From Styela clava (taxonomy: Eukaryota > Chordata > Ascidiacea > Stolidobranchia > Styelidae): 64,000 nt of DNA. The position numbers were made by a program, and so were the translations under genes. The notes below the pieces were generated by a model. The model saw nothing but the letters and a program-made list of their open reading frames with translations, was not told the DNA's origin and ran no database searches. Shown in pieces: positions 2,040 through 62,091 of this stretch. Numbering within the stretch: position 1 is the first letter of the stretch; every line of letters starts with the position of its first letter. The stretch is taken from assembly GCF_964204865.1 (NCBI RefSeq), contig NC_135263.1:11391426-11455425 (forward strand), given 5' to 3'.

Positions 2040-3248
2040 ATGAATTCCGTATTTTTAATCCAAATAGTCTTACTGGCAATTCTTGCTTTCGATACTGGAA
2101 ATTCCTTATTCCGTCGACGCAGACGTTGCCCAACACCATACAAGGATAAATATGAAGAACAAGTGAAGGAAGTTACAAAACTCAAAAGCAGTATCCAGGG
2201 CTATCAACGACTGGTGATGACCATGGGAAGCTTGGCTGAAAAAATAATTAATCACGGCACCCAGATTACGAATGAGGGCAACGAGCTTAAGAAACTTCAA
2301 TCAAGCCATACGTAAAAAGATCTTATACATATATTTTTTTCTCTTTTCCACGTTTGCAAAAAAAAATGAAATTTACAATATAAGCCAATCATAGGAGAGA
2401 TCAAGAGAAATTTGCATATTTTCATAATTGCACTTGAGATGACCGTATTTATTTGAAAATATTATATTTTTTATTTTGATAGAATATACATGAGCATATC
2501 ACGGATCAATTACTATTGTGTTTTATTTTTATTTTTTAAAATGTTAAAACTATACAACATAACAAATTGAATAGACTTCAATTTTAAAGAAATACTGGGT
2601 TTTAAGGAGGCTATGGTTATAGTATGGTTGCATCGTTAGCATGTGGCCCGATTTTTTTTATTAATGCTCGTGGTAATGTCCAGGAGAATTGCTGCATTCA
2701 ACAATGTCCGAGTTATGTCATTCGTTGGTAGGTTGCGTCCTGTTATAATAACTTCAGCTACGCAGAGGTAGTTATGCTCCATCTCGTAATCAAGAATTTT
2801 TTATTTGTTATTCTACCCTGCAACGTTTTTGAGCAGTCGACGTTTTTTTTTTCATTGTCTTCCTATCATTTTTATTATTGTTACCATTTTTTCCATTGTT
2901 GTTTATTTATTTTCACAGAAGCAGTGCTACTGGTCGTGACATAGCCGACGACAAACCTGACGAGGTGAGACGAAAAATAATCTGATTCGCAACAAAACAA
3001 CTGAGACTGATACTGTTTGTACTATTTAATTTATCCTTGTAGAAATGCGTGTGTGATAAATTTGTCCAAGTAATTGAAATATTTTTATAAATTTTGTTTT
3101 TTTTAGAACGCACTATGCGCACCGCGATTAAATTTGTGGTATATAGACTTAGATGTGCATTGTAAACTCTTGTTCATTTTAGAACTCTGATTCTGAAAAA
3201 CAAGATGCTGAGGATCTAGAGATGTTTGAAGATGTTAATAATTTCTAG
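2040..3248 (+). CDS. Subfamily A secreted Arg-rich single-Cys peptide precursor, copy 1
   Basis: Three exons: 2040-2311, 2919-2964, 3183-3248; introns phase 2 and phase 0, all GT-AG (ACgtaaaa, tttcacag, GAGgtgag, cattttag). Exon 1 encodes a signal peptide ending AILAFDTGNS, then LFRRRRRCP with one Cys, then about 65 residues of mixed-charge helix with heptad-like hydrophobics. Exon 2 (SSATGRDIADDKPDE) and exon 3 (DAEDLEMFEDVNNF, stop) are acidic. A TATAAG at 2005-2010 lies 35 bp before the ATG, so the 5' UTR would be very short. The stop TAG comes 14 codons earlier than in the copies at 19289 and 9 codons earlier than in the copy at 5794. It converges on the copy at 5794-7659. Exon structure is seen directly and confirmed by four paralogues. 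A defence-peptide role is inferred from the precursor layout only. Confidence 0.8.
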
Positions 3249-5793
3249 AAACAAAATAGTGAAGATGAAGAACTCTAAACATGGTAATATGCAAGTTAAT
3301 TTACAAAATAACATAATATTGAATTGAAGTTGAATTATCAGTGGGTAAAAAAATATATTGTTGAGCAAATTGTATTTGTATATAAACTTTGTAAAATCCA
3401 AATTAAGCTTGATTAAAACTAGAATTTTGAAGCTACCAGATAATCGAGGGATATTTTTAAATACATAATTGACTCATTTTAATTGTTTTTACAGTAAACG
3501 ATTCGTACATTTGTCTCAACTAAAAGAATTCAATACAAAAATTAGAAGATAAAGGACAACATATTACTCGGATAGATGATGAAATCACGTCTGATTTGTT
3601 GATATAACTTTTTCACAAAATTTTAAAACGATGTATAAACTGTTTATTTTTTTTAGTGCATCTTAATGATAATAAATAAAATAACAAGAAACATTCAGAA
3701 TTTTATTTATGTCTGCAAAACGGTCTGCGTCTTGATTTTTAATACGACCTAAACTGAGCTGAGTTATGCCAAATTAATTAGTAAAGTTTGTACCAGGCCG
3801 AGTTTATATATATATGGGAAATTAGGTACACTGCAGAAAAACTTTTTTTCAGGGCATGTGCATGTTTATTAAAATTTGCATAAGGAATGAACATGTGATA
3901 ATAAAAGCTAATATATATTATCACCATGTTATAGTGACATTATTCAAAAGATATTTATTGGCCACCGACAAAGTTTGTTGTTCATAGTATATTCTGTATT
4001 GTAGCCTAAATACTTATGTGAAGACGAAAGAATGTCTGCATGTTCATAGGATAATATAGTGTAAATCCATCCATTCACCTGGACAAATTGAACATAGAAC
4101 AAATTGGGAAATTTGACAGGATTTTCTCCATACATGGGTCCATTGAAATCTCAACGGTATTTTTGCAAAGCGAACAAAAAATTCCAGACCACATTTTCGA
4201 CCAGTCGGAATTTTTTTTAAGCTCTGTTAGAAAAACAACATGATGCAATTTATTTTAATAAAAGTGGTTGGTTGAAAGGAGGACAATACGTTGAAAATGA
4301 TTGATAGTTTGCCACACACGAGTTCTCGAAAAACCCAGTATCATCAAAAGTAGTTTTAGTGTGTGGGATATAAATTACTTTTTCATATAAACTTACGTTT
4401 ATCTGTTAGCGCTTGACTCATTTCCTTTAAACACTCAGTACATTTATTAGACATTGCATGACAAAGAAACGCATTTATAACGAAAACCTTGTATAAGCGA
4501 AAACCACTATCATTTTAAGCTTCTATTTTTATGCAGAATTCGATTTATTTACTAGTTGAAAGTATAGTTATCCCAATGCTTGGATTCAGTATAACCATGG
4601 CGTAGTTTGGTATTCATCTATTTCATCAATATTATGGTATTAGATGCAAAAATAGTGCAAGTTTAAATGAGACAAAACAAAGCTATAATATTCACGGTAT
4701 ATAATAGTAATGGATGTAGGCATACCTAAATATACATAAATTTCTAATAACAAATAATGGATCTTATTTTAATATTAGATTCCGGACAAAAATTTTTTTC
4801 GAAGAACGTGAATTACGTGAATGCAAGAGTAAAAAAAATACTTTATGCACCTTAGATAATATGATAGAGATCCATATTGAAGAAAACAAGGACATAGAAC
4901 GACTATGGAAATTCCATGGATTTTCCCAAAGTAAAAAAACACAAAGATCCAGGGAAATATCGATAGTGTTTTTGCAAAGTAAAGAAAACATTTTTTCGGA
5001 TTGTCAAGTTTTATTATTGTAATAATTGTTTCAATAAGGGTGTTCAGTCTAAACTAGAGGACAACAATACGTTTTGAAAGATCGGAGGTTTTTGACATAT
5101 AGTGGCTATCTAAAAATCCATGCAGTTGTATCGAATCTAGTTTTATGGTATGTAAGATAAATTTAGGATAATATAGTATAGATCGATCCATTCATCTGAA
5201 CAAGGAACATAGAATAAATTGTGCAATTCATGGGTTCATTGAAATCACAACGGTATTTTTGCAAACCGAACAAAATATTTCAGACCATATTTCCGACTAG
5301 TCGGAATTTTTCTTGCTCTATTAAAACTTGGACATAATTTATTTTAATAAAAGTGATTGGTTGACGGGAGAACTATACACTTGAAAATGATCGGTAGTTT
5401 ACCAAAAACGGGTTCTCGAAAAACCGAGTTGTATCAAAAGTAGTTACAGTGTGTGGAGATAAAGTAAATGAAGTAATCCAAGCATTAGGACACCTACTTG
5501 GGTCTTCAACCAGTAAATGAATCAAATTCTGCATTTGAAATGCAAGTGATTTTTTCTTATATAATGTTTTCGTTATGATATGTTTCACTTTGTTGGTCAT
5601 GCCATGTTTAATCAAGCTTAATTTAAATTTCTAATAGCTCCTATACGAATACAATTTTCTCAATTATAATTAAATTTTCAGGCAACAACCCCCTTTTTTA
5701 CTGACTAATAATTCAACTCCAATTTAATAATATTTTATTTTTTAGACACACAAGAACCACCAATTAACTTCAAAGACTTGCATATTACCATGT
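3249..5793. repeat. Inverted 3' flanks of the convergent genes at 2040 and 5794
   Basis: 3250-3720 and 5600-5793 are inverted copies. In addition a roughly 200-bp segment (CAACGGTATTTTTGCAAA ... GAGTTCTCGAAAAACCCAG type) occurs at 4135-4345 and 5215-5440, with a weaker copy at 4890-5135. The same box appears inverted in the tandem units near 12300, 12545, 14700, 14945, 17490 and 18310. Non-coding as far as I can tell. Confidence 0.7.
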
Positions 5794-7659
5794 TTAGAAT
5801 TCATCTTCACTATTTTGTTTTGGGAAGTCATTAACATCTTCAAACATCTCTAAAAACTTAGCATCTTGTTTTTCAGAATCAGAGTTCTAGAAAAAAAATT
5901 TTTTGACAATGCATATCTAAGTCTACATAACACAAATTGAATCAAGGTGCGCATGATGCGTTTTGAAAATAACAAAATATATATATTATTTTAATTAATG
6001 AGACAAATTCAGCCTTGCAAGTGTATTTGCAACTCTGCATTTCTACAAAGATAAATGGAATAGTACAAACAGTATCTTGTTGTTTTGTTGCGAACTAGAT
6101 TATTTTTCGTTTCACCTCGGCTGGTTTTCCGTCGGCTATATCATAATCACTAGCACTGTTCCCGTGAAAATAAATGAACAACAATGGAAAAATGGTAACA
6201 ATAATAAAAACTAGATAGCGATTGGAGACCGCCGACTTATCGATCTTCCGCATGTTCAATATTTTACTCGACGTGGATCCCCCAAAACAAAAACTGCGGT
6301 TTTAATTCTTTCGCTCTGACTCAATAGCGACACCGCGTGTCCCATCACTAATTAATTAATACCTCGCTAATTATACGAATTATATTAAAAATCAATAGGC
6401 TTCTGGTCCGAAATATGATGAATGCACATGCCAAATTTGGAGCTGATTCAACCTCACTTTCGTGAGATATCGCGTAACACACAAGCAAACAAGCAAACAG
6501 ACAAATAAATACCTATCAACATACCTACCGATCGAGATCGATAAATAATAATAACAAGACAATTGAAAGAAAACCTCGACCGCTCAGTAACCTTGCAGGA
6601 TAAAATGAGTAGCTGGTATTATAAGGTATTATAACAGGACGTAACCGACCCACGAGGCACAAAACTCGGACATTGATGAATTCAGCAATCTACTTAAGTA
6701 TTACTACCATGAGCATTACACAAAAAAATCATCCGGATCAACTGAAGAATCCCCCCTCCCCCGGGACCCACCTGGGGAGGAGATTCTCCAGTTGGATTTA
6801 CCAGAGGGGAAATTCTTCAGTTGATCCCGTTTCCCAACTGAAGAATGTCCCCCTCCCCCAACCCACCGATAATACTAGTTGATCCTTCATTTGACCTGGA
6901 CTACTTATTTGGTAGGGTTAGGGTTAGATGGACTTAGTAGGGGTGGAGATTCTACAGTTGGTCTAACTTGGGGAGGAGATTCTTCAGTTGGTCTAACTTG
7001 GGGTGGAGATTCTACAGTTGGTCTAACTTGGGGTGGAGATTCTTCAGTTGGTCTAACTTGGGGTGGAGATTCTTCAGTTGGTCTAACTTGGGGTGGAGAT
7101 TCTACAGTTGGTCTAACTTGGGGTGGAGATTCTTCAGTTGGTCTAACTTGGGGTGGATATTCTACAGTTGGTCTAACTTGGGGTGGAGATTCTTCAGTTG
7201 GGTACCCTGTGGGAGAGGGGGTCTTCAGTTGTTGATCCAATCACCCCATATACTAATGATGAATTGTAATCATACCTATAAAGCAAAGGCATATAAAACA
7301 AGGAAAGGTAATTAGTTTCAAGTAACCCCAACTGTTAAATACTTGTTGTAAAAATATGCAAATTTTTATATATATATAATATTTTTTTACATACGACTTG
7401 AATGGAGGTTTGTAAGCTTGTTTCCCTCATTCGTAATCTGGGTGCCATGATTAAATATTTTTTCAGTCAAGTTTTCCATGGTCATCATCAATCTTTGGTA
7501 GCTCTGGATACTACTTTTGAGTTTTGTAACTTCCTTCTTTTTTTCTTCGTATTTTTCTTTGTATGGTTGTGGGCAACGTCTGCGTCCACCCCAGGAATTT
7601 CCAGTATCGAAAGCAAGGATTGCTAGTAAGACTATTTGGATTAAAAATACGGAATTCAT
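5794..7659 (-). CDS. Subfamily A secreted Arg-rich peptide precursor, copy 2 (damaged acceptor, transposon in intron 1)
   Basis: Exons on the minus strand: 7391-7659, 6116-6161 (or 6116-6155), 5794-5886. Exon 1 has the same signal peptide as the other A copies, then WGGRRRCPQPYKEKY and a Lys/Glu-rich helix. The polyarginine run is reduced to three Arg. The normal acceptor AG of exon 2 is mutated to GG. A CAG six bases further in is in the same phase and would only drop two residues, so the frame survives. Exon 3 is open for 30 codons (QDAKFLEMFEDVNDFPKQNS, then EDEF, stop). The first intron holds a 504-bp foldback/minisatellite insertion. The gene may still be expressed or may be decaying. 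Confidence 0.68.
6735..7238. mobile_element. Foldback-like element carrying a 30-bp minisatellite
   Basis: The ends are inverted: GGATCAACTGAAG at the left, and the right end reads GGATCAACAACTGAAG on the other strand. Flanks are AATCATCC (6727-6734) and AATCACCC (7239-7246), an 8-bp target duplication with one mismatch. The paralogous intron near 19990-20010 lacks the insert and reads AAAAAATCCGTCCATATAC, a usable empty site. Units related to the minisatellite occur in inverted orientation at 6740-6870 and directly repeated at about 6949-7200. No transposase is present, so it is non-autonomous. It sits in intron 1 of the 5794-7659 gene. Confidence 0.7.
6949..7200. repeat. 30-bp minisatellite, about 8-9 units
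   Basis: The unit is 30 bp, made of TCTWCAGTTG, GTCTAACTTG and GGGTGGAGAT. Units alternate between TCTACAG and TCTTCAG variants, and one unit has GGGTGGATAT. Because 30 is a multiple of three and the unit has no stop, both strands show long open frames here. These are not genes. Confidence 0.95.
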
Positions 7660-9644: not shown

Positions 9645-10987
9645 ATGAACACCAAATTGATACTCGTTCTTCTTTCAGTCGCATTGTTTGTGGCCGATAA
9701 CGGAGCAGCCAGATACAGGTGTCGACGACGCCTTACTTACAGGGCATTACTTATAAACTACTATAAGATGATAAATAGTGTGAGGGTGTACTCTAGAAGA
9801 GCTTACATCCTGGGACGAGGATTAAATTCGATTGCTTCATACTACAGGTAAGTGGATTCTATACGTAATTTTTATGTACGTATGAAAAAAATAATATGCA
9901 CAGCGAAAAAACATCCTGATGATATTTACCCCTTTTTCATTACAGGAGACTTGCCTATTATGGAGACGCTGAAGCAATTGACAAGAAACAAAATGACCTA
10001 GCCAAGGTAAATTGAAACAATATTTTGAAAATATATATACAGTATTAAGATTATAAATTGAATCACGAAAATTTTCATAAATTTCGACGCTTTTTATATC
10101 GGCTTCAACTATCTTCAAGTACTAAAAGTTCATTGTTTTTTTCACATTTACCAAGAACAAGCTCCAGAGAAGTACCTACTAACACATAGAGAGTTGCTAT
10201 TTTCAAGGTACCAGGGTTTTTCTCTTATCCGTGCGCAATTTATTACTCTCTTATTTTCTTGTAGTTGTTAAAATGGTGTACTTGAACAAGATTTTTTACT
10301 TGTCATAGCAATATAGTTTTGTCAAAGATTTATGGACCAGATTAATGAATTTCCTGTTTGCCCCAATCTTATAATACCTTCGAAAATATTTCCCTTTTGT
10401 TTTTATTAAAGGATACTGCTGATTTCTTTGAAGATGGAGATGAAATGTTGGATCATTTGGAAATTGAGAAAGACACTGAGGAAATTCCAGATCATAATAA
10501 AGCTGGTGAAATATAAAAATATTATTCATCCTTCCGGATAACGACCGGGTCAGGTCGGTCAGCAATTTAACTGTCACCCATTTAGCTCTGTTTGCATAAA
10601 ATAACTTTTGTTGGCATTTTATTAGACCTTTTACATTTACATAAAACTCAAATTTTCAATATCAGTACCTTAGCTGTATATATATATATATATTTACCAG
10701 GTAAGAGACACACCAAGTTCTGTTTAAATTCATGATAGCTAATTTCATTCAACTTCTTCTCCTCTCAGCTTCATTTTCGATTCTCCGAAAATGCTCGACA
10801 TAATCTTAGAATGTTATGCTACGAACATATTTGAAATTAGCATTGAATGGCTTATTCAAATTGTAAACATTATCATTTTCGATACCTGTTAGAAATATTA
10901 TAGTCACACTGTCGCATCATATACCTATATTAAACAATTTCCTTTTTTTCAACAGCAATCAAAGCTTTCAGCAAACTTGACGAATAA
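9645..10987 (+). CDS. Subfamily B secreted cationic peptide precursor (RYRCRRR type)
   Basis: Four exons: 9645-9847, 9946-10006, 10412-10505, 10956-10987; phases 2, 0, 1. Exon 1: signal peptide ending VADNGAA, then RYRCRRRLTYRALLINYY and a Tyr/Arg-rich amphipathic segment to SIASYYR. Exon 2 starts RRLAYYGDAEAIDKK, so a Gly-Asp junction separates the cationic core from the acidic tail. Exon 3 is acidic (DTADFFEDGDEMLDHLEIE). Exon 4 (AIKAFSKLDE, stop) follows a strong pyrimidine tract and CAACAG. Without the last splice, the frame ends GEI, stop, at 10516. A strong acceptor (TTTTTAG, 9636-9637) lies 7 bases before the ATG, suggesting a 5' UTR intron or trans-splicing. Single Cys. Antimicrobial-type function is inferred. 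Confidence 0.78.
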
Positions 10988-11025: not shown

Positions 11026-13769
11026 GATCTTGTACTTTTTGTGACCGTTGATATAATATAAACTTTATACAATTCGGAATGCAATTAAATGTAACCCTAC
11101 GATAAAACTGTGTTTTTTGATTGATATATATTGTAATGTATCATGCAAAGTTGAGTACGATTCCCAAATTGGCGAGACGTGATTTGTAATCAAGTCTTGA
11201 GTCGACTCACAAATACTGAGCATGACGTTTAAGTAGTGGACAGCAATATTTTTAAAGATATTTACGCACCTTCACTACGAGCAGAGCTATGTACTACAGC
11301 CTATTTTTGAAAGAATGGCAATTTTTCCGGTTTGGCAATGCATACCCGATTCATTACCGCCTGTGTGAGTTGGTGGTCGTTAACGACTGGCCGGCCGTAA
11401 GACAATACTGGCATGCATATTTCCTAAATAATATTTAGGACTGCATGGATTTTAGCATGTGGCTTCTATTTCAGAGTAACCACAAGTCCAAAGTGAATGA
11501 GCTTTCCATACTCTGACATCTCCGCTAAAACAGGGGATGTTTTACGTTGTTTCTGTCGCAATTAAAAGATATTTCATTAGCAACCTTTACAGTTAATGGG
11601 ATACAGCGCTGCCTTGCGTATATTTCGTAAATCTCACAAACTGAACCTTGTACACAAAAAAGTGTTTGATTAGCCGATTCAACTATCAGTACTCCTATAA
11701 AACACAGTATATTTCATGGTAAATATAACTTGTTGAAAATCTTCCCTAAAAATTTTAGCCTGTCGAATTTTTGTCTACCAAGCTATTACTTCACTGTGTT
11801 TATTTGAATTGCTTTTTGAGCCATACTTTAGGGTTTTTATAGAGCATAATTACAAAATACTTACACTATTGTGCGGGAATTAATGCTTGCCCCTTTACCT
11901 TACTCTTGCTATTATTAATTCATCGACTCCTGTAAAGTATAAAGTAAAAAACGTCAAAAAGAATACGCCATAAAATTTACGATGAAGTAGAAATAGGATT
12001 TTAAAAAACACAATAATAAGTTAGCCGGAATAAAACATTTTAAAACGTTTCACAAGACTTTTTTCTCTCACAATTTTAATGCTTCGTGTTGTTGAATCTC
12101 TTTTATTCTTGAGAAAATCTGTGGGAGATTTCAGACTGTAATGTTGAAAAAATGAATAAATGCACGCATGGATTTTTTGATAGACAATATATGTCGAAAA
12201 CCGACGATCTTTTAAAATGTCTTGTCGTCCTATAGTTTATAATGACCACTCTTATTGAACAAAATGACATCAAATGTTTTTTTCTAATATTACAATGAAA
12301 GAAATTCTGATAATTCGAAAAAAATGTTATCTTCGCTTTGCAAAAATACTATCGAAATTTCCTTTGATCTTTGTGTTTTTTATGTTGTGGGAAAAATCCA
12401 TGAAATTTCCATATTTTTCTATGTCCATTTGCCGAGATGTTCTTCTGAATAGTACCGATCAAGTATTGTCCTCCTTTCAACCAACCACTTTTATTAATTA
12501 AAATAAAGTGCATCAGAGCTACTAAAGATAAAAAAAAATTCCGACTGGTCGAAAATATGGTCTGGAATTTTTTGTTCGCTTTGCAAAAATACCGTAGAGA
12601 TTTCAATGGACCCATGTATGGAGAAAATCCTGTCAAATTTCCCAATTTGTTCTATGTTCAATTTGTTTATATAAATGAATGGATCTACACTACATTATCC
12701 TATGAACATGCATCCATTCTTTCGTCTTTACATAAGTATTTAGGCTACAATACAGAATATACTATGAACAACAAACTTTGTCGGTGGCCAATAAATATCT
12801 TTTGGGTAATGTTACTATAACATTGTGATGATGAATTTTATTTTCCTTTCTCACATGTTTATTTCTTATGCAAACATCGAAGTTAAAAATGAACATGCCA
12901 TAAATAGAAGTTTTTCTGTACTGTACTTAATTCTCCATATATATAAACTCGGCCTGGTACAAACTTTACTAATTAATTTGGCATAATCCAGCTAACTTTG
13001 AGTCGTATTAAAAATCAAGACGCAGGCTGTTTTGCATACATAAATAAAATTATGAATGTTCCTTGTTATTTTATTCATTATCATTAAAATGCACCAAAAT
13101 TGAATAAACAGTTAATACGTTAAAAAGGGTATTTAAACAAATCAGACGCAATTTCATCATCTATCCGAGTAATATGTTGTCCTTTATCTTCTAATTTGTG
13201 TATTGAATTCTTTTAGTTGAAACAAATGTACGATTTATTCACTGCATAAACAAAAAAAAATCAGTCAATTGTGTGTTTAAAAAAATCCTTCGAATTATCG
13301 TAAAATCTAGCTTCAAAATCCAAGTTTTAATTAAGCCTAATTTCGATTTTAAAAAGTTTATATACAAATACAATTTAATCAATTATCGTTAAATTTTCAG
13401 GCAACAATCTCTTTTTTCATTTACTAATAATTCAACTACAATTTATTATTTTATTCACTTTTCAAACACGCAAGAAACAGCAATTACCATGTTTAGAATT
13501 CATCTGTGGATTCATCATCTTTACTATTTTGTTTTGGGAAATCATTAACATCTTCAAACATCTCTAGATCCTCAGCATCTTGTTTTTGAGAATCTGAATT
13601 CTGAAATAAAAGAAGAATTGACAATGCATATCAAAGTCTACATAACACAAAATCAATCAAGATGCATTTTGAAAATAACAAAATATATAAGAAAATTTCA
13701 ATTAATTGGACAAATTTATCCGTTAAAAGTGTATTTACAACAGCGCATTTCTACAAGTATAAATTGAAT
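11026..13769. repeat. Segmental tandem copy U1 (3' flank plus orphan terminal exon)
   Basis: Starts at GATCTTGTACTTTTTGTGAC, 39 bp after the stop of the 9645 gene. The same start recurs at 13770 and 16166. Near 12440 U1 lacks the bases corresponding to 17631-18234 of the third copy. It ends inside what was intron 2 of a subfamily A gene (AAATTGAAT junction). Apart from the terminal exon at 13493-13600 the unit looks non-coding. The frames of 60-98 codons in it recur only because the DNA is duplicated. Confidence 0.88.
13493..13600 (-). pseudogene. Orphan terminal exon of subfamily A (intact frame)
   Basis: Minus-strand exon with acceptor TTTATTTCAG, then NSDSQKQDAEDLEMFEDVND, FPKQNSKDDESTDEF and a stop. 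It matches exon 3 of the 19289-20419 gene nearly exactly. No exon 1 or 2 of this copy lies upstream. The sequence that should be intron 2 is joined to the start of the next tandem unit at 13770. It is either a duplication relic or an alternative last exon about 5.7 kb downstream of the 19289-20419 gene. Confidence 0.75.
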
Positions 13770-16165
13770 GATCTTGTACTTTTTGTGACCATTGATATAA
13801 TATAAACTTTATACAATCCGGAATGCAATTAAATGTAACCCTACGCTAAATTTGTGTTTTTTGATTGATATATATTGTAATGTATCATGCAAAGTTGAGT
13901 ACGATTCCCAAATTGGCGAGACTTGATTTGTAATCAAGTCTTGAGTCGACTCCCAAATACTGAGCATGACGTTTAAGTAGTGGACAGCAATATTTTTCAA
14001 GATATTTACGCACCTTCACTACGAGCAGAGCTATGTACTACAGCCTATTTTTGAAAGAATGACAATTTTTCCGGTTGTTACGTTGTTTCTGTCGCAATTA
14101 AAAGATTTTTCATTAGCAACCTTTACAGTTAATGGGATACAGCGCTGCCTTGCGTATATTTCGTAAATCTCACAAACTGAACCTTGTACACAAAAAGTGT
14201 TTGATTAGCCGATTCAACTATCAGTACTCCTATAAAACACAGTATATTTCATGGTGAATATAACTTGTTGAAAATCTTCCCTAAAAATTTTAGCCTGTCG
14301 AATTTTTGTCTACCAAGCTATTACTTCACTGTGTTTATTTGAATTGCTTTTTGAGCCATACTTTAAAAAAACAAAATAATAAGTTAGAAATAAATAAATA
14401 AAAACAAAACAATAAGTTAGCCGGAACAAAACATTTTAAAACGTTTCACAAGACTTTTTTCTCTCACAATTATAATGCTTCGTGTTGTTGAATCTCTTTT
14501 ATTCTTGAGAAAATCTGTGGGAGATTTCAGACTGTAATGTTGAAAAAATGAATAAATGCACGCATGGATTTTTTGATAGACAATATATGTCAAAAACCGA
14601 CGATCTTTTAAAATGTCTTGTCGTCCTATAGTTTATAATGACCACTCTTATTGAACAAAATGACATCAAATGTTTTTTTCTAATATTACAATAAAAAAAA
14701 TTCTGATAATCCGAAAAAAATGTTATCTTCGCTTTGCAAAAATACTATCGAAATTTCCTTTGATCTCTGTGTTTTTTATGTTGTGGGAAAAATCCATGAA
14801 ATTTCCATATTTTTCTATGTCCATTTGCCGAGATGTTCTTCTGAATAGTACCGATCAAGTATTGTCCTCCTTTCAACCTACCACTTTTATTAATTAAAAT
14901 AAAGTGCATCAGAGCTACTAAAGATAAAAAAAAATTCCGACTGGTCGAAAATATGGTCTGGAATTTTTTGTTCGCTTTGCAAAAATACCGTAAAGATTTC
15001 AATGGACCCATGTATGGAAAAAATCCTGTCAAATTTCCCAATTTGTTCTATGTTCAATTTGTTTATATAAATGAATGAATCTACACTACATTATCCTATG
15101 AACATGCATCCATTCTTTCGTCTTCACATAAGTATTTAGGCTACAATACAGAATATACTATGAACAACAAACTTTGTCGGTGGCCAATAAATATCTTTTG
15201 GGTGATGTTACTATAACTTTGTGATGATGAATTTTATTTTCCTTTCTCACATGTTTATTTCTTATGCAAACATCGAAGTTAAAAATGAACATGCCATAAA
15301 TAGAAGTTTTTCTGTACTGTACTTAATTCTCCATATATATAAACTCGGCCTGGTACAAACTTTACTAATTAATTTGGCATAATCCAGCTAAGTTTGAGTC
15401 GTATTAAAAATCAAGACGCAGGCTGTTTTGCATACATGAATAAAATTCTGAATGTTCCTTGGTATTTTATCCATTATCATTAAAATGCACCAAAATTGAA
15501 TAAACAGTTAAAACGTTAAAAAGGGTATTTAAACAAATCAGACGCAATTTCATCATCTATCCGAGTAATATGTTGTCCTTTATCTTCTAATTTGTGTATT
15601 GAATTCTTTTAGTTGAGACGAATGTACGATTTATTCACTGCAAAAACAACAAAAAAATCAGTCAATTGTGTGTTTAAAAAATCCTTCGAATTATCGTAAA
15701 ATCTAGCTTCAAAATCCAAGTTTTAATTAAGCCTAATTTCGATTTTAAAAAGTTTATATACAAATACAATTTAATCAATTATCGTTAAATTTTCAGGCAA
15801 CAATCTCTTTTTTCATTTACTAATAATTCAACTACAATTTATTATTTTATTTACTTTTCAAACACGCAAGAAACAGCAATTACCATGTTTAGAATTTATC
15901 TGTGGATTCATCATCTTTACTATTTTGTTTTGGGAAATCATTAACATCTTCAAACATCTCTAGATCCTCAGCATCTTGTTTTTGAGAATCTGAATTCTGA
16001 AATAAAAGAAGAATTGACAATGCATATCAAAGTCTACATAACACAAAATCAATCAAGATGCATTTTGAAAATAACAAAATATATAAGAAAATTTCAATTA
16101 ATTGGTCAAATTTATCCGTTAAAAGTGTATTTACAACAGCGCATTTCTACAAGTATAAATTGAAT
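13770..16165. repeat. Segmental tandem copy U2
   Basis: Second copy of the unit starting GATCTTGTACTTTTTGTGAC. Relative to U1 and U3 it has lost about 210 bp at about 14076 (CCGGTT joined to GTTACG) and about 165 bp at about 14364. It shares with U1 the fusion that lacks 17631-18234. It carries a second orphan terminal exon at 15889-15996. High identity to U1 suggests recent duplication. Confidence 0.88.
15889..15996 (-). pseudogene. Second orphan terminal exon of subfamily A (intact frame)
   Basis: Same 36-codon frame as the exon at 13493-13600, ending DESTDKF instead of DESTDEF. It has an intact TTTATTTCAG acceptor. No partner exons are present in this unit. Confidence 0.75.
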
Positions 16166-19100: not shown

Positions 19101-19566
19101 ATCTAGCTTCAAAATCCAAGTTTTAATTAAGCCTAATTTCGATTTTAAAAAGTTTATGTACAAATACGATTTAATCAATTATCGTTAAATTTTCAGGCAA
19201 CAATCTCTTTTTTCATTTACTAATAATTCAACTACAATTTATTATTTTATTTACTTTTCAAACACGCAAGAAACAGCAATTACCATGTTTAGAATTCATC
19301 TGTGGATTCATCATCTTTACTATTTTGTTTTGGGAAATCATTAACATCTTCAAACATCTCTAGATCCTCAGCATCTTGTTTTTCAGAATCTGAATGCTAA
19401 AATTAAAGAAGAATTGACAATGCATATCAAAGTCTATATAACACAAATTCAATCAAGATGCATTTTGAAAATAACAAAATATATAAAAAAAAATTCAATT
19501 AATTGGACAAATTTATCCGTTAAAAGTGTATTTACAACAGCGCATTTCTACAAGGATAAATTGAAT
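16166..19566. repeat. Segmental copy U3, the longest version, joined to the 19289-20419 gene
   Basis: Begins with the same 20-bp start as U1 and U2 and runs without a break into exon 3 and intron 2 of the subfamily A gene, so it probably represents the parental arrangement. It keeps 17631-18234, which U1 and U2 lack. That segment's right end (AACTACCGATCAAG, CTCGTGTGTGG on the same strand) also matches, inverted, the flank of the 2040 gene near 4290-4400. Confidence 0.82.
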
Positions 19567-20419
19567 AGTACAAACAGATTCAGTTTCTGTTGGTCTGTTG
19601 CAAACCAGATTAATTTTTGTCTCACCTCGTCAGGTTTGTCGCTGGCTGTGTCATAACCATAACCAACAGCACTGTTTCTGTAAATGAACAACAATGGAAA
19701 AATTGGTAACAGCAATAAAAATGATAGGACAACAATTGAAAGAAAAGGTCGCCCGCTCAGAAACGTTGCAGGACAAAATAACAAATATAAAGAAACTATT
19801 TGATCACAAGAAAGGAGGATAACTTTTTATCCAATTACTACTGCTTCATCGGTTATAAGACGATGGGCCACTTATGAGTAGCGGGTATTATAAGGTATTA
19901 TGACAGGACGTAACCGACTAACGAATGACATAACTCGGACATTGCTGAATTCAGCAATCCTCCCAGTCATTACCATGAGTATTACACAAAAAATCCGTCC
20001 ATATACTAATGATGAATTGTAATCGTACTTATAAAAGTTGAAATATGCAAATTTTATCTTGACCCTAAATGATTGGCTTATATTGAGAATTTCATTTGTT
20101 TGCAAACATGGGAAAAAATATATCTATATATATATATAATATTGTTTTACATATGGCTTGATTGGAGTCTCTTAAGCTCGTTGCCCTCTTCCGTAATTTG
20201 GGTGCCGTGATTGACTATTTTTTCAGCCAAGTTTCCGATGGTCATCATCAATCTTTGGTAGCTCTGGATACTGCTTTTAAGTTTTGTAACTTCTTTCTCT
20301 TTTCCTTCATATTTTTCTTTGTACGGCGTTGGGCATCGTCTGCGTCGACCCCAAGAATTCCCAGTATCGAAAGCAAGAATTGACAGTAGGACTATTTGGA
20401 TTAAAAATACGGAATTCAT
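19289..20419 (-). CDS. Subfamily A secreted Arg-rich single-Cys peptide precursor, copy 3
   Basis: Exons on the minus strand: 20151-20419, 19626-19677, 19289-19396; phases 2 and 0. Exon 1: signal ending SILAFDTGNS, then WGRRRRCPTPYKEKYEGK and a heptad-like helix. Exon 2: NSAVGYGYDTASDKPDE. Exon 3: HSDSEKQDAEDLEMFEDV, then NDFPKQNSKDDESTDEF and a stop. This is the longest acidic tail of subfamily A. TATAAG at 20445-20450 is 31 bp before the ATG. It is the best intact member: all splice sites are canonical. Orphan copies of its last exon lie downstream at 15889 and 13493. Confidence 0.82.
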
Positions 20420-23643: not shown

Positions 23644-24871
23644 CTAGAAATTATTAACATCTTCAAACATCTCTAGATTATCAGCATCTTGTTTTTCAGA
23701 ATCAGGGTTCTAAATAAACAAGAATTTACAATGCATATCTCAGTCAATATACCACAAATTTAATCGCGGTGCGCATGGTGCGTTATAAACATAACAAAAT
23801 ATATAAAAAAAAAAAGATTCAATTAATTGGATAAATTTATCCGTTCAAGTGTATTTGCAACGTGCTTTCCACAACGATAAATTGAAAGGTACAATCAGTA
23901 TTAGTCACCTCGGCAGGTTTGTCGTCGGCTGTGTCATTACCAATCGCACTGCTCCTGTTAAAATAAATAAACAACAATGAAAAAAATGGTAACAGTAATA
24001 AAAATGAAGGAAGACAATGGGAAGAAAACGTCGATTGCTCAGAAACGTTGCAGGATAGAATAACAAATAAAAAGAAACTCCTTGATCACGAGAAAGAGCA
24101 TATCTTTTTATCCGATCCACACAGCTTCATCGGTTATAGGACAATGGTGGGCTAACTACTTATGCGTAGGTGAAGTTATTATAACAGGACGGAACCGACC
24201 AACGAATGACATAACTTGGATGGACATTGATGATTTCAGCAATTCTCATGGTCATTACCAAAAGCATTACTAAAAAATAAGCTCACATACTAACGATGTA
24301 GCCACACTTTAATTAAATTGAAAGCCTCATTAAAATCCTGTAGTTGTTCAAAATTGAAATCTATTCAATTAGATATGTTATATAGTTTTAACATCATGGA
24401 AAAATAAAAACACAATAGTAATTGATCCATGCTATGGTTATGTATCTTTTATCAAAATAAAAAATATAATATGTTCAAATAAAGAGGGTCATGTTGAGTT
24501 CAATTATAAAAGTATGCAAATTTTCATATTTACATTGAGAATTTTATTTTTTTGTAAACATGGAAAAGGAAAAAATATGTATATATATAAGATTTTTTTT
24601 ACGTATATCTTGAATGGAGGTTTTTAAGCTCGTTGCCCTCATTCGTAATCTGAGTGCCGTGATTAATTATTTTTTCAGCCAAGCTTCCCATGGTCATCAT
24701 CAAGCTTTGGTAGCTCTGGATTCTCTTGTTTAGTTTTGTAACTTCTTTTTCTTTTGCTTCATATTTTTCCTTGAACGGTTGTGCGCAACGTCTGCGTCGA
24801 CTCCAGGAATTTCCAGTATCGAAAGCAAGAATTGCCAGTAAGACTATTTGGATTAAAAACACGGAATTCAT
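23644..24871 (-). CDS. Subfamily A secreted Arg-rich single-Cys peptide precursor, copy 4
   Basis: Exons on the minus strand: 24603-24871, 23909-23954, 23644-23709; phases 2 and 0. Exon 1: signal ending AILAFDTGNS, then WSRRRRCAQPFKEKYEAK and a helix with the same spacing as its paralogues. Exon 2: SSAIGNDTADDKPAE. Exon 3: NPDSEKQDADNLEMFEDVNN, then F and a stop; the early TAG is shared with the 2040 gene. TATAAG lies about 30 bp before the ATG. About 2 kb of upstream DNA is paralogous to that of the 19289-20419 gene. Confidence 0.8.
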
Positions 24872-36530: not shown

Positions 36531-37430
36531 TTATTCTTCCAAATTCTTCACAATTTGATCAACTTGATCGGCATCTTCAGCTTAAAATAAAATGAGCAAA
36601 ATGAATTATTTTTACATAAAAAAAAATAATAAAAATTGGAATAGAAATTATTTATTTTCCTTGTACGTCCTTTATAGTACATACCTTCAATGTCATCAAT
36701 ATATTCAGGGAGAGCTGCCACAAGAGAATTCAAATCCATGTTCTACAAAGATAATGTGAGAGTAAATTTCCAATTATAGAAGTTCGAGTATTTATTGGCA
36801 TGATTATTTTAGGTAAAAGTCTATTTGTAAATCTAATGTGATGTCGTTTCAAAATTTACAAAAATCGTGTACAATTTTTTGCTATATAAATTTATAAAGC
36901 AATATGCAGAAGCTAAGCTGATACCTTATTTAGCAGCATATCTTCATCTTCAAAAGCAGTGCGTCTGAAAATATCAGTCAATGAATTAATTTGAACACGA
37001 TATTTGTGCCGGTAGTTACCAGTTAGGCACACTTTCTTGAGCCCTGTCGATCGCAAAGGCCCCACACGGTGTCGCAATTGTCGAAATGAGCTAAATATAG
37101 TACTGAACAGATGGTCCAGGGATCCACGCAAAGTTATTCTTATTGGCATCTTATGGAAAATATTCTCATCGACTATTCCATTAAATACCAGTCAACCAAC
37201 CTTTGTTTGGAAGGCAGAAGATGAGTTTGTTGGTTAAGTTTTTTCAGTGATCTCATCAATGAGTGGTATTCTTTCTTTATACGGTTGCGTTTCTTCAACA
37301 ACGCCATATATCTTTGCCGCTCGTTTTTTGTAAGTCGGACTTGACCCTGGTGAATTGAATTACTCACGCTTGCTTTACTCGCAACAACGGCAAAGATGAC
37401 AACAAGGGCAAGGGCAATCACAAACTTCAT
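36531..37430 (-). CDS. Divergent member of the secreted peptide family (no polyarginine, no Cys)
   Basis: Exons on the minus strand: 37201-37430, 36925-36964, 36685-36742, 36531-36580; phases 2, 0, 1, identical to subfamily B. Exon 1: signal peptide (MKFVIALALVVIFAVVASKA), then a Lys/Arg-rich helix (MALLKKRNRIKKEYHSLMRS, LKKLNQQTHLL). Exon 2: RTAFEDEDMLLNK. Exon 3: NMDLNSLVAALPEYIDDIE. Exon 4: AEDADQVDQIVKNLEE, stop; it shares the AED start with the 60681 gene. The core is less basic, lacks Cys and lacks the Gly-Asp junction. An acceptor TTGACAG lies 3 bases before the ATG, and a TATA box with a 5' UTR exon is visible upstream at about 38159-38250. Confidence 0.75.
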
Positions 37431-41670: not shown

Positions 41671-43184
41671 ATGAAAGTGAGATTCTTGATTCTTTTGGCA
41701 CTTGTGGCGATCCTCGCCTTTGACGGTGGAGATTCTTGGAGTAGACGTAGAAGAAGAAGAAGACGTTGTCCCCCTACATATACATCACAGTACCGCTCAG
41801 TGCGGAAACTTTATACTGCTTTGTATACACGCCATGTTAGTGTATTGGGTAAATACAAAGGTTTGCTTGCATTCGTCCTTCGAGAGGGTAGAAATGCAAA
41901 GAGATACGGCTACCAGATGAAAGCTCTTGGACAAAAAATGATTGCTAAGTTCTACAGCTACAGGTGGAACAAATTTGACATCTTACTTCATTATTTGATG
42001 CTAAAATACATATAACAATACTTTTCTTACAACCATATCGCATGGTATTTTTGTAGCAATCATAAACAATGAAACAAAGCTAATTCACTCCAGCTGTGTT
42101 AATATTGAAATCTTCCGAGCTGTGTCATTTTTATGATCCTATAGAATTACAATAAAAAAATGGCTAATTGCTATAGTTTGTAAGAAAGTCACTGTATATA
42201 GTGATGAACAAGAAGGCAATGCTCAAATATATGGACATGAAAGCCGAAACGAAGTAGTAGCGTAACCACCACCATATGATTGAGATGTTATCACGGAACC
42301 ACAGCACTCAATTTTTATTTCACGTTTTAATTTCACGTTCATATAATCAAGTTTACTTTCTAAGCGTTTTTGTTTTCGGTGTATTTCTATGTGACTTTCG
42401 ATTTTCTTTATAAATATTCTCTTATTCTTTTTACGATTATTTATTACATTTCAGGAAATATGCTTATGGGGATATGGAATTTGAGGACGAACCTTTTATA
42501 GACGAGGTAGCAGCGAGTAATATGTTGAGTTTTATACTTTGTAGGATCTGAAGTTTAAATTAGCTAATTCCATTTACCAATTGCTATATTTATATTTATC
42601 AAGTGTCTTCCCAATCATTATTACTGATTATTTTATCCAAATCTTTGGAAACCCAAATATTTAATATATTTCTATTCGGTAATCTTCTATTACAAAAAGT
42701 TAAAATCCTACAAAGATGTTATATAAAAAAATACTAATACGTTTGTTTTTCCTCACTCAGAGCCATGATTTCGACGATGATAATATCAGTGAACAAGTCA
42801 ACGATGATCAGGACATGTTTCAGGATTCAGAAGATTTTTCTGAAAACGAGGACGAAGAAGAAGTCAAGCAACTACCCGATGAAGGTAACAAACCAAATGA
42901 ATATATAAAAATACAACCATCTTGAATTTTTTTTATCCTAATGAGACACTAAACTTTGCTGTCGATCGATCGTAACAATTTGTACTACAAACGTTATGAG
43001 ATGAGTGAAGAATTTAAACAAATATTAAATTGCACAATTCAATCTCAAATCCGATCGCGGAGTGCGCCCGGTCCTAACAAAATCATAAAATTATGATAAA
43101 CAGGACCAATTAAATGACAATTTCTTTTTATATTAAGTGCAAGACACCGATTCAAACGTGATAGAATCTCATAAAAAAGAATAA
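41671..43184 (+). CDS. Subfamily B secreted octa-arginine single-Cys peptide precursor
   Basis: Exons: 41671-41963, 42455-42506, 42761-42884, 43138-43184; phases 2, 0, 1. Exon 1: signal ending AILAFDGGDS, then WSRRRRRRRRCPPTYTSQYR and an amphipathic helix containing FVLREGRNAKRYGYQMKALG. Exon 2: KYAYGDMEFEDEPFIDE, with the Gly-Asp junction. Exon 3: DFDDDNISEQVNDDQDMFQD and more Glu. Exon 4: VQDTDSNVIESHKKE, stop, found by conservation with the 52448 gene. By my count the cationic part carries about +22 and the acidic part about -27, a near-neutral precursor. The first donor is CAGgtggaa, weaker than in the paralogues. Family role (defence peptide) is inferred. Confidence 0.83.
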
Positions 43185-52447: not shown

Positions 52448-53573
52448 ATGAAAGCACGATTCTTGATTCTTTTGGCACTTGTGGCGATCCTCGCTTTTGA
52501 CGGGGGGGATTCTTGGTTTAGTCGTAGACGACGAAGGCGTCACTGCGCACCATCATTCAAATCAAGCTACTACGCACTACTGAGGCATTATCGTGCCATG
52601 TATAGACGCCACATTCACGTACTGCATATGTACAGAGGTTTGGTTTCATTCGTCCTTCGAGAGGGTAGAAATGCAATGAAATACGGTAACGATGTGAGAA
52701 ATCTTGGGCGAAAAATGATTGCTCAGTTCCACAAACACAGGTAAAAAAAATTTTCTAAGCCTGACGATTAGAAAACCGTCAAAATATTTTTCCACCACAG
52801 GGCCGCATGATATTTTCGCAGCAATCAAGACCATCCTCCAGCTATGTTTTCAAGTTTTGTGAACCAATAAACATGCGAATAATGATGTTGTGCAGTCCCC
52901 ATATATTTTGAAAAAATTATCATGAAATATACTAATACTACGTGTTTATATCCTTTATATAAATATTTATTACATTACAGACAATATACTGGCGATATAG
53001 AATTTGAAGACAAAACTTTCATGGACGAGGTAATAGAGAAAATATGTTTTAGACTTATTAGGATTGAATTTAACTGTCAATTACTATATTTATATACATC
53101 TATATTACCAAAACTTTAATCGCAACAAGTATCTTACATAAAAAAATACGTTTATTCTTGCTATCTTAGAGCCATGATTTTGACGATGAGAAGTTCGATG
53201 AACAAGATATCGATGATCAGGACATGTTCCAGGATTCAGAAGATTTTGAAAACGAAGACGAGGAAGAACTCAAACAATTATCCGGTGAAGGTAACAAAAC
53301 ATTACCAACAAACCAATTAAACAATAAAATATTTTGAGCTTTTTGTCATCTCAATAGGACGATAGTATTTGAGGTAACATCACGATTTTTTTAAACAAAA
53401 CTGATAAATTACATTGATTTTAAAAGTTAGATTTATTTGCATTATTCAAACTCAAACTGGATCAGGCCCGATCCTAATTATAAACCCAAGGCTCTTTTAG
53501 AATATTATTTATTTTTTATTATTAAGTGGAAGACACCGATCAAAACATCCACGAGACTCAACAAAGAGAATAA
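52448..53573 (+). CDS. Subfamily B secreted polyarginine single-Cys peptide precursor
   Basis: Exons: 52448-52740, 52981-53029, 53170-53290, 53527-53573; phases 2, 0, 1. Exon 1: signal ending AILAFDGGDS, then WFSRRRRRRHCAPSFKSSYY and a His/Tyr/Arg-rich helix with FVLREGRNAMKYGNDVRNLG. Exon 2: QYTGDIEFEDKTFMDE, one codon shorter than the 41671 paralogue, Gly-Asp kept. Exon 3: DFDDEKFDEQDIDDQDMFQD, then an acidic stretch. Exon 4: VEDTDQNIHETQQRE, stop. All splice sites are canonical. Coding sequence is intact although a 5.5-kb element sits just upstream of the TATA box, so expression may be altered. Confidence 0.83.
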
Positions 53574-58926: not shown

Positions 58927-59086
58927 ATGATAAATATTGATTCGATCATTTGTTCTTTGTTATTGATATTTTCAGTTTATGAAAATCAAACAAAAAAGAG
59001 CATGTCCAAAAATGGATAAATGACTCATTCGTGAAATTGACCACGCCTACCATATCTTGTGTTGGGGGCTTGGGGCAGGCATATAA
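58927..59086 (+). pseudogene. Broken third copy of the secreted first exon
   Basis: Aligned with 56832 and 57840 it lacks one base after AGCATG, so the frame stops soon after MINIDSIICSLLLIFSVYEN. It also has Leu to Ser in the signal core and loses the Gly before the presumed cleavage site. Donor AAgtgagt is intact. Confidence 0.72.
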
Positions 59087-60287
59087 GTGAGTACAATCCT
59101 ACCTTGGTGTGATACAAAATACACAACAGGTTCACGTCAAAGACGAGCCCATAATTGAGCAATTTCTCGCACAACAGTAAGGTCGATATTTTGCAAGTAA
59201 GGTCTATAGATGAGTTATAGAACTCGCTAAAAAATATTAGTTTTTTTATGCTAGGTAATATTACACCATATCGGGGTTACGTACATTCTGAGAATCTTAC
59301 ATAAAACTCTTCATATTATCCTTCATGAGGTAAATGGCAGAATACTACCAAACAGTCTACCGGCAACGACCCAATAGCTCATTGCAAGTCATATAGTATA
59401 CCAAATAAAGCATGACATTTGACATTTCACCACACGGAAGCGGAACTGATTATATAACCTTTCGCTTAAAATGTCTTATCCGGGCAATAATGTGTTTCTG
59501 TATCCTGCACAAATGTCACTAAAAACATTGTTAAAGTATAAATTAGTCAAGAAGTTGAACCTCTAAACTGCAAACTACAAATCATTTTGTACGGCACGCA
59601 ATGGGAGGTTTGCCCATTCGTTTTTTTTATGCTAGGTCATATTACACCATATCGTAGTTGCGTACATTCTGAGAATCTTACATAAAACTCTTCATATTAC
59701 CCATCATGAGGTAAATGGCAGAATACTACCAAACAGTCTACCGGCAACGACCCAATAGCTCATTGCAAGTCATATAGTATACAAATAAAGCATGACATTT
59801 GACATTTCACCACACGGAAGCGGAACTGATTACATAACATTTCGCTTGAAATGTCTTATCCGTGCAATAATGTGTTACTGTATCCTGCAAAAATGTCACT
59901 AAAAACATTGCTAAAAGTATAAATTAATCAAGAAGTTGAACCTCTAAACTGCAAACTACAAATCATTTTGTACGGCACGCAATGGGAGGTTTGCCCATTT
60001 TTACTGGCGCGTAATAATATAGCAACCATTCGGTATATGGTTTCAGTATGCATTAGCATTTAGTGGTTGTACTTGAATTTACTACCGATTGAGTATACAG
60101 CACCTTGCGATGAGCAAGTTCTCATAAAATAAATTATTATCCATATCTACCTGTAGGAAATGCTTATCATAAAAATGTGAAACGAGTGAATCAAATAGGA
60201 TTTTACACCCGTTTCATATACTATAACAATATGAAGGTTTTTACTGGCGCGGTGAGAGTGCCAATGTGACAAAGTTGCTCTTTTTAA

Positions 60288-60406: not shown

Positions 60407-60680
60407 CTTTTATTTCAATTCTTAAAAGACCATACGATTAAAGCACTCGTGTACTGAATATTTCAACATACAGAGATTGGCATTACTTGCACACACGCAA
60501 TCTCGCCAGTCAGGTTATATTACGCTATGAACAGCCCATCCTGACAAGTTCATGTGAATTTAAACACACTCCAAAAGAAGCACTTTGAAAAGGACACAAT
60601 ATCACTATTGTTGGCTAAATTTCTTATCAGCTTTTTACAAGGTGAATTCTATTTTTTAGATTGTGTAATATCGAACAAAT

Positions 60681-62091
60681 ATGCAAACCAAATTGTTGAT
60701 TGTTCTTGGTCTTGTGGCGATTCTTGCCTTTGAATGTGGTGATTCCTTTTGGAGAAGAAGGCATTACAGAAGAAGACATCACTGTTCCTACTCCTACAAG
60801 GCTCACTACTATTCCATCCTGAGGCACTATCATACTGTCAACTCAAGATACCACGTCATCTTGAGGAATTACAGGATCCTTGTCAATTACATACATCACG
60901 TTGGCGTCAAAGCACTCCGATACGGAGGCCACGTGACTGCCATAGGAAGACAACTTCTTCATCAGTATTCCAGACACCAGTAAGCAATCCCCGATCAATA
61001 TTAGTGTGTTTAATATGAAAATAGACGGCGCTTTTAACAATTAAAGTCTTTGTGCCGAACAATATTAGTGGCACACAGATTAATGTCGAGATGCCAAGGA
61101 TAAAAAGTTTAATTTCTAGAATTAAAAAAAGTTTGTAATACCCTCTTTTCTACAATTTAGGAATGAAAATTCTATACTGTTTGTGCTATCTTCTACCCCA
61201 AAATTAAAAACTGTATTTTAATTGAATTTTCGGAATTTTTATCTAATAATCACCCCGCCTAACGTTCTCAAAATAAGATCGTATTTTTCGGTTTTATGTA
61301 TATTTGCCAAAATAAGTAGCCCTCTTTGACGTGTGTAGCTGAATGAACGTAATTTTGCACCAACTACTAGATTCTAAGTATTACGAAATGCGTTGATTGA
61401 GGATTGTTATATATTCCGAGCCAATAAAATTTGAAAATTTATCATATTTCAGCCATATATCTCATGTCTACGGAGATGAAGAAGATATCGAAGAGAGTGA
61501 TCTTTTTGCCGAAAAAGATGTTCGTAAATTTATTTTTATTTGAATAAAATTTGGAAGTCATTTACCGTTTCAAATAAATCGAAATATGCCAACTTTGATC
61601 TCATGTTTTAAATTATTGACAACAAAATCAAGATGTGACGTTATATTCACGATAACCACCATAATGATGTCAAATATCTTTAACTTTAACCACAATGCTT
61701 TACTACTTGCATTCAAAAGAATGCTCACTATATATATGTCCGAGAAGAACGAGTATTGATATATATAAAATATCATTGTACGTTAAGAATATTCGAACTG
61801 ATAAAAATAAATAATATTGATCTTACATAAACTTTATCAACAGAATGATAGTTTCGAACAAGAATTTGATGACCAGAACGATGATCGGGATATGGTCGAA
61901 GACTCTGAAGATATGAGTGAAAACGAAAATGAAGAAGACCTGAAGGAACTCCCCGAAAAAGGTGAACATATTTAAGTTGTGTTACTTGTGTTGTAAAAGG
62001 ATTGATGATTGTTGTTAAGCCTTTGATTTGAATGATTTTCTTATTTTAAGCTGAAGACGTCAACAAGGATCATAATCTCAACGACAAATAG
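60681..62091 (+). CDS. Subfamily B secreted Arg/His-rich single-Cys peptide precursor
   Basis: Exons: 60681-60979, 61453-61519, 61844-61961, 62051-62091; phases 2, 0, 1. Exon 1: signal ending AILAFECGDS, then FWRRRHYRRRHHCSYSYKAH, a Tyr/His-rich helix and HHVGVKALRYGGHVTAIGRQ. Exon 2: HISHVYGDEEDIEESDLFAE, with the Gly-Asp junction. Exon 3: NDSFEQEFDDQNDDRDMVED and Glu-rich sequence. Exon 4: AEDVNKDHNLNDK, stop. The donor of exon 2 (GATgttcgt) is non-ideal. The many His residues interspersed with Arg could make charge pH-dependent. An acceptor (ATTTTTTAG) lies 21 bases before the ATG. Confidence 0.82.

Follow-up and report, generated by a model that had tools for sequence, protein, structure and literature searches.

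A tandem cluster of genes for predicted secreted precursors in Styela clava, probably a divergent and unnamed, antimicrobial-type branch of the styelin-type family

The stretch of DNA considered here (‘the window’; 64,000 nucleotides of the Styela clava genome, C18:11391426-11455425) carries a cluster of genes for predicted secreted precursors, each with a signal peptide, a basic, often Arg-rich core and an acidic C-terminal tail. Using four database proteins as guides, together with splice-site scans, we rebuilt ten of these genes (g1 to g10; Table 1), which encode precursors of 126 to 174 residues, with GT-AG introns and a single terminal stop in all ten. A first-pass annotation of the same DNA gave a span alone and spoke of eleven genes, which we take to be the eleven signal peptide-like open reading frames (ORFs) in its ORF list; ten of these are upheld by their frames, splice sites and intron phases, with the eleventh, 37430(-), finding support neither in genome searches nor in its candidate exons. 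This last ORF is not matched in the search of the genome (376.6 Mb) with the g8 protein described below, its candidate exons are unconvincing and, used as a genome query in its own right, it retrieves, apart from its own locus, no more than two weak hits on C2 (best E 0.08). The cluster runs on past both edges of the window, to a g10-like gene at 11387808 on C18, for which exons 2 and 3 are candidates, and to a g9-like gene at C18:11461082, for which there is a complete model of 174 residues; counting both of these flanking genes, it amounts to 12 genes over about 75 kb.

A profile search (of the PSI-BLAST/HMM type), which had been proposed as a check on the first-pass annotation, leads to sequences without a name. 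Run against 5.8 billion proteins, with a method that reaches only relatives sharing 5-residue words, the ten-precursor profile has five matches at E ≤ 10, all of them S. clava loci called only ‘uncharacterized protein’, which correspond to g1 (P0004, LOC120341095), g3 (P0003, LOC120341478), g7 (P0002, LOC120341295), g8 (P0001, LOC120341446) and g10 (P0005, LOC120341494 isoform X1); no protein record was found in this search for g2, g4, g5, g6 or g9. The five LOC numbers were not found in the literature searched, and Pfam gives no family above cut-off for any of the ten whole precursors, with sub-threshold matches only, both for these and for ten exon 1 ORFs (that of g9 left out).

Half of the gene models can thus be compared with predicted proteins of S. 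clava, which bears out the tunicate origin guessed in the first-pass annotation. Both g1 and g3 are identical to their database counterparts over the full length, and g7, g8 and g10 differ from theirs at three, four and two aligned positions, respectively. The Arg run of g7 exon 1 (41671-41963) is two residues different from that of P0002, which suggests a run-length polymorphism between haplotypes or assemblies. The loosest of the ten is g10, which was missed by the genome search with P0001 and has a BLAST E of about 0.03 in the window, with a score no better than that of the 37430(-) ORF; P0005 itself was retrieved by a profile whose input included g10. We keep g10 as a member because of its database-confirmed exons (P0005), its intron phases of 2, 0 and 1, and its Gly-Asp site; its exon 4 (phase 1) was a splice-site candidate first and was later found to be present in P0005.

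The exon-phase code set out in the first-pass annotation holds throughout: intron 1 is in phase 2 and intron 2 in phase 0 in all ten window genes, and intron 3 is in phase 1 in each of the four with a settled exon 4 (g7, g8, g9 and g10). A phase-2 donor alone is non-discriminating, since 59 of 70 control ORFs carry one (the controls being window ORFs of at least 45 amino acids, minus those with a same-strand family gene within about 3 kb downstream). With thresholds that were fixed once the gene models were known, a right-phase acidic exon 2 lies downstream of 9/10 family ORFs against 0/70 controls, g10 falling below the acidity threshold, and an acidic exon 2 followed by an acidic exon 3 is found for 9/10 (again not g10) against 0/70. 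The motif [DE]xxMF[EQD], said to mark most of the third exons, occurs in its strict form in five of the ten, and it is the shorter [DE]MF[EQD] that most of them share (7/10). Two places in the models call for comment: the usual acceptor of g2 exon 2 reads CACGG instead of CACAG, with the modelled AG lying a few bases downstream; and g6 exon 3 may end at a stop (31714) or at a phase-1 donor (31722) that leads to a candidate exon 4.

With the signal peptide set by position at 22 residues (cleavage after residue 22 being assumed), the exon 1 cores are 45-77 residues long (67-77 in nine of the ten) and the tails, measured from the end of exon 1, 37-75 residues; all ten tails are acidic, and the whole precursors are near-neutral (net -11 to +2). 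Arg, Tyr and His abound in the cores of g5-g9, which are charged +15 to +20 against -15 to -26 in their tails; the shorter g10 has +11 in the core and -10 in the tail, and R+Y+H+K make up 41-49% of the g5-g10 cores. In g1-g4, the signal peptide is followed by a run of three to five Arg and a Cys, the tails have charges of -9 to -14, and the cores, which hold 7-8 acidic residues, reach +6 to +7, so that ‘Arg-rich or basic’ describes the cores of g5-g10 well and those of g1-g4 poorly. Exactly one Cys is found in 9/10 cores (g6 has none) and none in any tail; Trp is present in 8/10 cores. A Gly-Asp pair occurs early in the stretch encoded by exon 2 in 6/6 of g5-g10 and in 0/4 of g1-g4. An AlphaFold model of the cores (pLDDT 74, pTM 0.39, 10 sequences) predicts, with modest confidence, helices at residues 37-79 and 83-97, and has no match among PDB structures better than E 2.2; a PDB sequence search with the g8 exon 1 ORF also gave no match. 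A full-length model of P0001 (pLDDT 62.6, pTM 0.26, 4 sequences) was not used to judge core-tail contact.

Ratios of nonsynonymous to synonymous substitution (dN/dS, omega) were obtained for eight paralogue pairs, six of which lie within g1-g4 and are therefore non-independent. Omega is 0 to 0.15 for the signal peptide and 0.25 to 0.68 for the core, and such low values mark both segments as coding sequence under constraint; no sign of positive selection was seen, as core omega stays below 1 in 8/8 pairs. The tail is less constrained, with an omega between 0.29 and 1.26 for seven pairs and no defined value for the eighth. A test of signal peptide against core, covering five of the eight pairs, finds the signal peptide to be slower (in nonsynonymous change) in four (Fisher p 1.3e-5 to 0.012), with p 0.30 for g9/g12. 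A slow signal peptide beside a faster core is also familiar from the antimicrobial precursors of frogs.

Elsewhere in the genome, a styelin gene lies at C10:16312433-16313920 (Pfam PF17562, E 7e-41, 138.8 bits). It consists of a signal peptide of 22 residues, a mature part of 32, a Gly and a propiece of 26, which are the lengths given in the published description (PMC8659048), and has introns in phases 2, 0 and 0, with exon 2 encoding the Gly|Asp site. No prior description of styelin exon structure is apparent among the literature matches listed for styelin with intron/exon, and a styelin fragment taken from PMC8719109 gave no candidates as a query.

Between this gene and the window stand further clusters. 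A search of the whole genome with P0001 scored 26 candidates, of which 24 match at E ≤ 1. C18 holds 13 of these, among them several later exons of a single gene, and C3 the other 11 (ten at 16.14-16.22 Mb and one at 7.76 Mb). Spliced models were made from 9/11 of the C3 matches, the other two being only partial, and these have the window type of signal peptide and Arg run, with intron 1 in phase 2 and intron 2 in phase 0; C3a-C3c also have a third intron in phase 1, as in the window, and a styelin-like stretch, KVGKFYKR. A C3 query leads to 22 places (ten in the C3 cluster, three at C3:7.75-7.77 Mb, seven on C18 and two on C4) and a C4 query to nine (three each on C4, C3 and C10), the signal peptide of the C4 cluster (7.12 Mb) being close to that of the C10 styelin gene; no gene model was obtained for the other two C10 places. 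The clusters at C3 16.14-16.22 Mb, C3 7.75-7.77 Mb and C4 7.12 Mb are further styelin-like precursor clusters, in which exon 3 resembles that of styelin, whereas the window exon 3 does not clearly do so; their cores are also shorter than those of the window, or otherwise built. Sub-threshold Styelin matches were seen for two of the four C3 proteins scanned (E 0.016 and 0.15) and for none of the C4 proteins.

The strength of these connections was gauged by comparing profiles, in single pairwise comparisons of small alignments that are not database-corrected. Window and C3 profiles match with Prob 99.3, which becomes 94.2 without the signal peptide and 4.0 with all C3 sequences reversed. Their score of 107.8 compares with a mean of 18.6 when all blocks are shuffled and is reached in 0/100 such shuffles, nor is it reached (0/100) when the signal peptide is kept and the rest shuffled, or vice versa; as shuffling the signal peptide alone lowers the score to a mean of 49.8, both parts contribute to the similarity. 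C3 in turn matches the C4 and styelin sequences with Prob 98.75 and 0/100 shuffles with the signal peptide kept, by which measure this kinship is secure outside the signal peptide too. The window compared with C4 and styelin together gives Prob 83.6 (0/100 shuffles).

On these findings we consider it likely that the window holds a tandem cluster of secreted antimicrobial-type precursors, forming a divergent, unnamed and lineage-specific branch of the styelin-type family. An antimicrobial role had at first been drawn from the cationic core and anionic tail; this reading is strengthened because the phases of the first two introns and, in six genes, the Gly|Asp maturation site are those of the styelin gene, and because intermediate clusters (C3 and C4) join the two, although the gain lies in gene architecture and kinship and not in function. 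The same three points bear on the claim that the family is undescribed: the sequences are indeed without a name, but ‘unlike any named family’ is too strong. What we propose for the window genes is a kinship with styelins by steps, along with a shared gene architecture, and not membership in Styelin proper.

Several observations weigh against this reading. The direct comparison of window and styelin is weak (Prob 26%), the Styelin profile matches 0/10 window precursors at E ≤ 10 (HMMER filters drop most matches above 0.1), and the third intron is in phase 0 in the C10 styelin gene as against phase 1 in the window genes. With the C3 signal peptide kept and the rest reversed, the match to the window is still at Prob 94.7, and much of the window-C3 signal is therefore signal peptide; when the shuffling spares both signal peptide and Arg run, the score of 107.8 compares with a mean of 97.0 (standard deviation 2.0; 1/100), an excess so small that homology is secure only over roughly residues 1 to 32. 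Convergence is known to be possible for signal peptides, and Arg runs are low-complexity sequence. The charges of core and tail are correlated (r = -0.82, n = 10; cores +6 to +20, tails -9 to -26), but mostly between clades (within g5-g10, r = -0.66, p = 0.16), and tail omega is as high as 0.91 and 1.26 in two pairs. The cores of g1-g4 are hardly cationic and lack Gly-Asp. Amphipathicity is unexceptional, with an uncorrected permutation p < 0.05 in only 3/10 cores, and was dropped as proof of an antimicrobial helix.

Were the window family unrelated to styelins, its signal peptide, Arg run and acidic tail would have arisen independently and by convergence, and its phases would agree by chance. 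That would sit well with the missing Pfam Styelin match, with the share of the similarity carried by the signal peptide alone and the little that is left beyond residue 32, and with the odds of a two-intron phase match, which by itself may be expected about 1 in 9 times by chance. It sits badly with the loss of score when only the signal peptide is shuffled, with the finding that every off-cluster P0001 match is on C3, within clusters built on a similar plan, and with the core and exon 3 that the C3 intermediates have in common with C4 and styelin, and we regard a separate origin as quite improbable. The role may also be disputed: the products could be secreted structural or condensing proteins that kill little by themselves, their Arg/Tyr/His-rich core and acidic tail assembling into polyelectrolyte complexes in the tunic, in extracellular traps or in the granules of blood cells. 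Most cores are long for a lytic peptide, their content of R+Y+H+K is high in g5-g10, the helix is predicted (with modest confidence) to be long and not short and amphipathic, the precursors are near-neutral, and the styelin-like botryllin is described as occurring in extracellular traps (PMC9966394); yet the stepwise styelin-type kinship, the Gly|Asp site of g5-g10 and the fast core beside a frozen signal peptide tell the other way, and we think such a role unlikely. A signal peptide, a basic core, a possible amidation Gly and clustered, fast-evolving paralogues would equally suit secreted signalling precursors of a neuropeptide- or cytokine-like kind, but no repeated short peptide units were seen on reading the ten precursors (without a formal test) and an antimicrobial family is the closest relative identified, which leaves signalling a very faint prospect.

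The antimicrobial peptides of S. clava blood cells are reported to fall into two families, styelins and clavanins (PMC4904370). The window genes resemble the styelins of the same genome in a 22-residue signal peptide (assumed for the window), in intron phases of 2 then 0, in the Gly|Asp site of exon 2 (6/10 window genes) and in the acidic C-terminal part encoded by later exons. They differ in that mature styelins have 31-32 residues, and a propiece of 26, against exon 1 cores of 45-77 and tails of 37-75; in lacking a Styelin profile match; in having one Cys in 9/10 cores, where the C10 styelin gene has none; and in the phase of intron 3. Styelin D is reported to contain modified residues (bromo-Trp, DOPA, and hydroxylated Lys/Arg; PMC8659048), and mature clavanins have 23 residues and are His-rich. 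Botryllin, a styelin-like peptide made in morula cells of Botryllus schlosseri, is similar by description only, with a precursor of 158 residues, a signal peptide of 23, a cationic mature part, a long propiece and a location in morula-cell granules, though its mature part is of just 37 residues; its authors propose that morula cells store the propeptide and that, once released, it occurs with extracellular traps (PMC9966394). Also by description, Halocynthia offers analogies in dicynthaurin, a helical antimicrobial homodimer with a single Cys per chain and one disulfide, and in halocidin, a helical heterodimer joined by one disulfide (PMC2866484); a single Cys, as in dimers of the dicynthaurin type, is present in 9/10 window cores. 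Ciona precursors, including Ci-MAM and other linear cationic ones, are alike in layout, most of them running from signal peptide through a cationic helix to an anionic helical region, but have 50-100 residues by the search criterion of the study concerned (PMC7387483), in which styelins and clavanins are also described as cleaved before D or DD.

From this we sketch how an antimicrobial-type precursor from the window might work. The signal peptide would take it into the secretory pathway, and the acidic tail (exons 2 to 4) would keep the Arg-rich helical core (mostly exon 1) inactive and soluble. In g5-g10, a cut before the Asp of the exon 2 Gly|Asp site would expose a Gly at the C-terminus that could be amidated, as in styelin, and the released core might then bind anionic microbial surfaces, with its single cysteine perhaps forming disulfide dimers. 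We infer the cleavage and amidation, the release of the core and the masking by the tail from the presence of Gly-Asp in 6/6 of g5-g10, at the position it has in the styelin gene, and from the published precursor layout. The window genes may act as has been suggested for botryllin, through storage in morula cells and a place in traps after release. The g1-g4 clade, with its weakly basic core and no Gly-Asp, has probably shifted in function.

The remaining features of the window are mostly repeats. A piece of about 1.27 kb with a g3-type exon 3 recurs in two units (window 11000-18300) that are 94-95% identical to 18300-19566; these match g3 only from inside intron 2 onward, lack exons 1 and 2, and their exon 3 copies are possibly orphan last exons or alternative third exons of g3. 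A minisatellite lies between g1 and g2 (6940-7201; 30-base unit, 8.7 copies), a 51-base unit is repeated 7.5 times at 50549-50933, where it overlaps an open Lys/Asn-rich frame, and the region 56745-59999 holds several repeats, about 190-380 bases in size, together with a short ORF stretch that recurs (MINID...).

Table 1. Exons of the ten rebuilt genes and other features, in window positions
Feature	Position	Strand	Basis or remark
g1 exon 1: signal peptide and RRRRRC core, phase 2 end	2040..2311	+	ORF; identical to LOC120341095
g1 exon 2, phase 0 end	2919..2964	+	splice-site scan, model
g1 exon 3, acidic, stop	3183..3248	+	protein-guided match, model
g2 exon 1	7391..7659	-	ORF, model
g2 exon 2, doubtful; usual acceptor lost (CACGG)	6116..6155	-	model uses other AG
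g2 exon 3, acidic, stop	5794..5886	-	protein-guided match, model
g10 exon 1, short core, loosest member	9645..9847	+	ORF; P0005 (LOC120341494 isoform X1)
g10 exon 2, YYG|D site	9946..10006	+	model
g10 exon 3, phase 1 end	10412..10505	+	model
g10 exon 4	10956..10987	+	splice-site candidate; in P0005
orphan g3-type exon 3 copy in duplicated unit	13496..13603	-	window self-comparison
orphan g3-type exon 3 copy in duplicated unit	15892..15999	-	window self-comparison
g3 exon 1	20151..20419	-	ORF; identical to LOC120341478 (P0003)
g3 exon 2	19626..19677	-	protein-guided match, model
g3 exon 3, acidic, stop	19289..19396	-	protein-guided match, model
g4 exon 1	24603..24871	-	ORF, model
g4 exon 2	23909..23954	-	splice-site scan, model
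g4 exon 3, acidic, stop	23644..23709	-	protein-guided match, model
g5 exon 1: signal peptide, eight-Arg run and core	28821..29119	-	ORF, model
g5 exon 2, RWG|D site	28526..28589	-	splice-site scan, model
g5 exon 3, acidic, stop	27852..27986	-	protein-guided match, model
g6 exon 1, core without Cys	32290..32582	-	ORF, model
g6 exon 2, YHYG|D site	32126..32189	-	splice-site scan, model
g6 exon 3, acidic	31714..31818	-	stop at 31714, or phase-1 donor at 31722
37430(-) signal peptide-like ORF, basic core; membership unsupported	37173..37430	-	genome searches
g7 exon 1	41671..41963	+	ORF; LOC120341295 (P0002)
g7 exon 2, YAYG|D site	42455..42506	+	protein-guided match, model
g7 exon 3, acidic, phase 1 end	42761..42884	+	protein-guided match, model
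g7 exon 4, stop	43138..43184	+	protein-guided match, splice-site scan
g8 exon 1	52448..52740	+	ORF; LOC120341446 (P0001)
g8 exon 2, YTG|D site	52981..53029	+	protein-guided match, model
g8 exon 3, acidic, phase 1 end	53170..53290	+	protein-guided match, model
g8 exon 4, stop	53527..53573	+	protein-guided match, splice-site scan
g9 exon 1	60681..60979	+	ORF, model
g9 exon 2, VYG|D site	61453..61519	+	splice-site scan, model
g9 exon 3, acidic, phase 1 end	61844..61961	+	model
g9 exon 4, stop	62051..62091	+	splice-site scan, model

A bolder proposal, which we offer as speculation and hold to be doubtful in this full form, is that styelins are one small offshoot of a larger superfamily of styelid peptides spread over at least four contigs (C3, C4, C10 and C18), with the window as a new structural class: Arg/Tyr/His-rich, long-helix chains of about 75 residues that would pair as disulfide dimers through their one Cys, each of them masked by a charge-matched acidic tail. 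Here g1-g4, having lost both cationic helix and maturation site and kept only the Arg-Cys head, would serve as non-lytic binders of microbial polymers or of trap material.

Finally, if the window genes are indeed a branch of the styelin-type family, then the genome of S. clava would hold a much wider, and largely unnamed, set of styelin-type precursors, clustered on several contigs; more of them could be sought in other tunicates by way of their exon code and Gly|Asp site, and the idea of the acidic tail as an evolving, charge-matched mask would become testable across paralogues with cores that range from +6 to +20.

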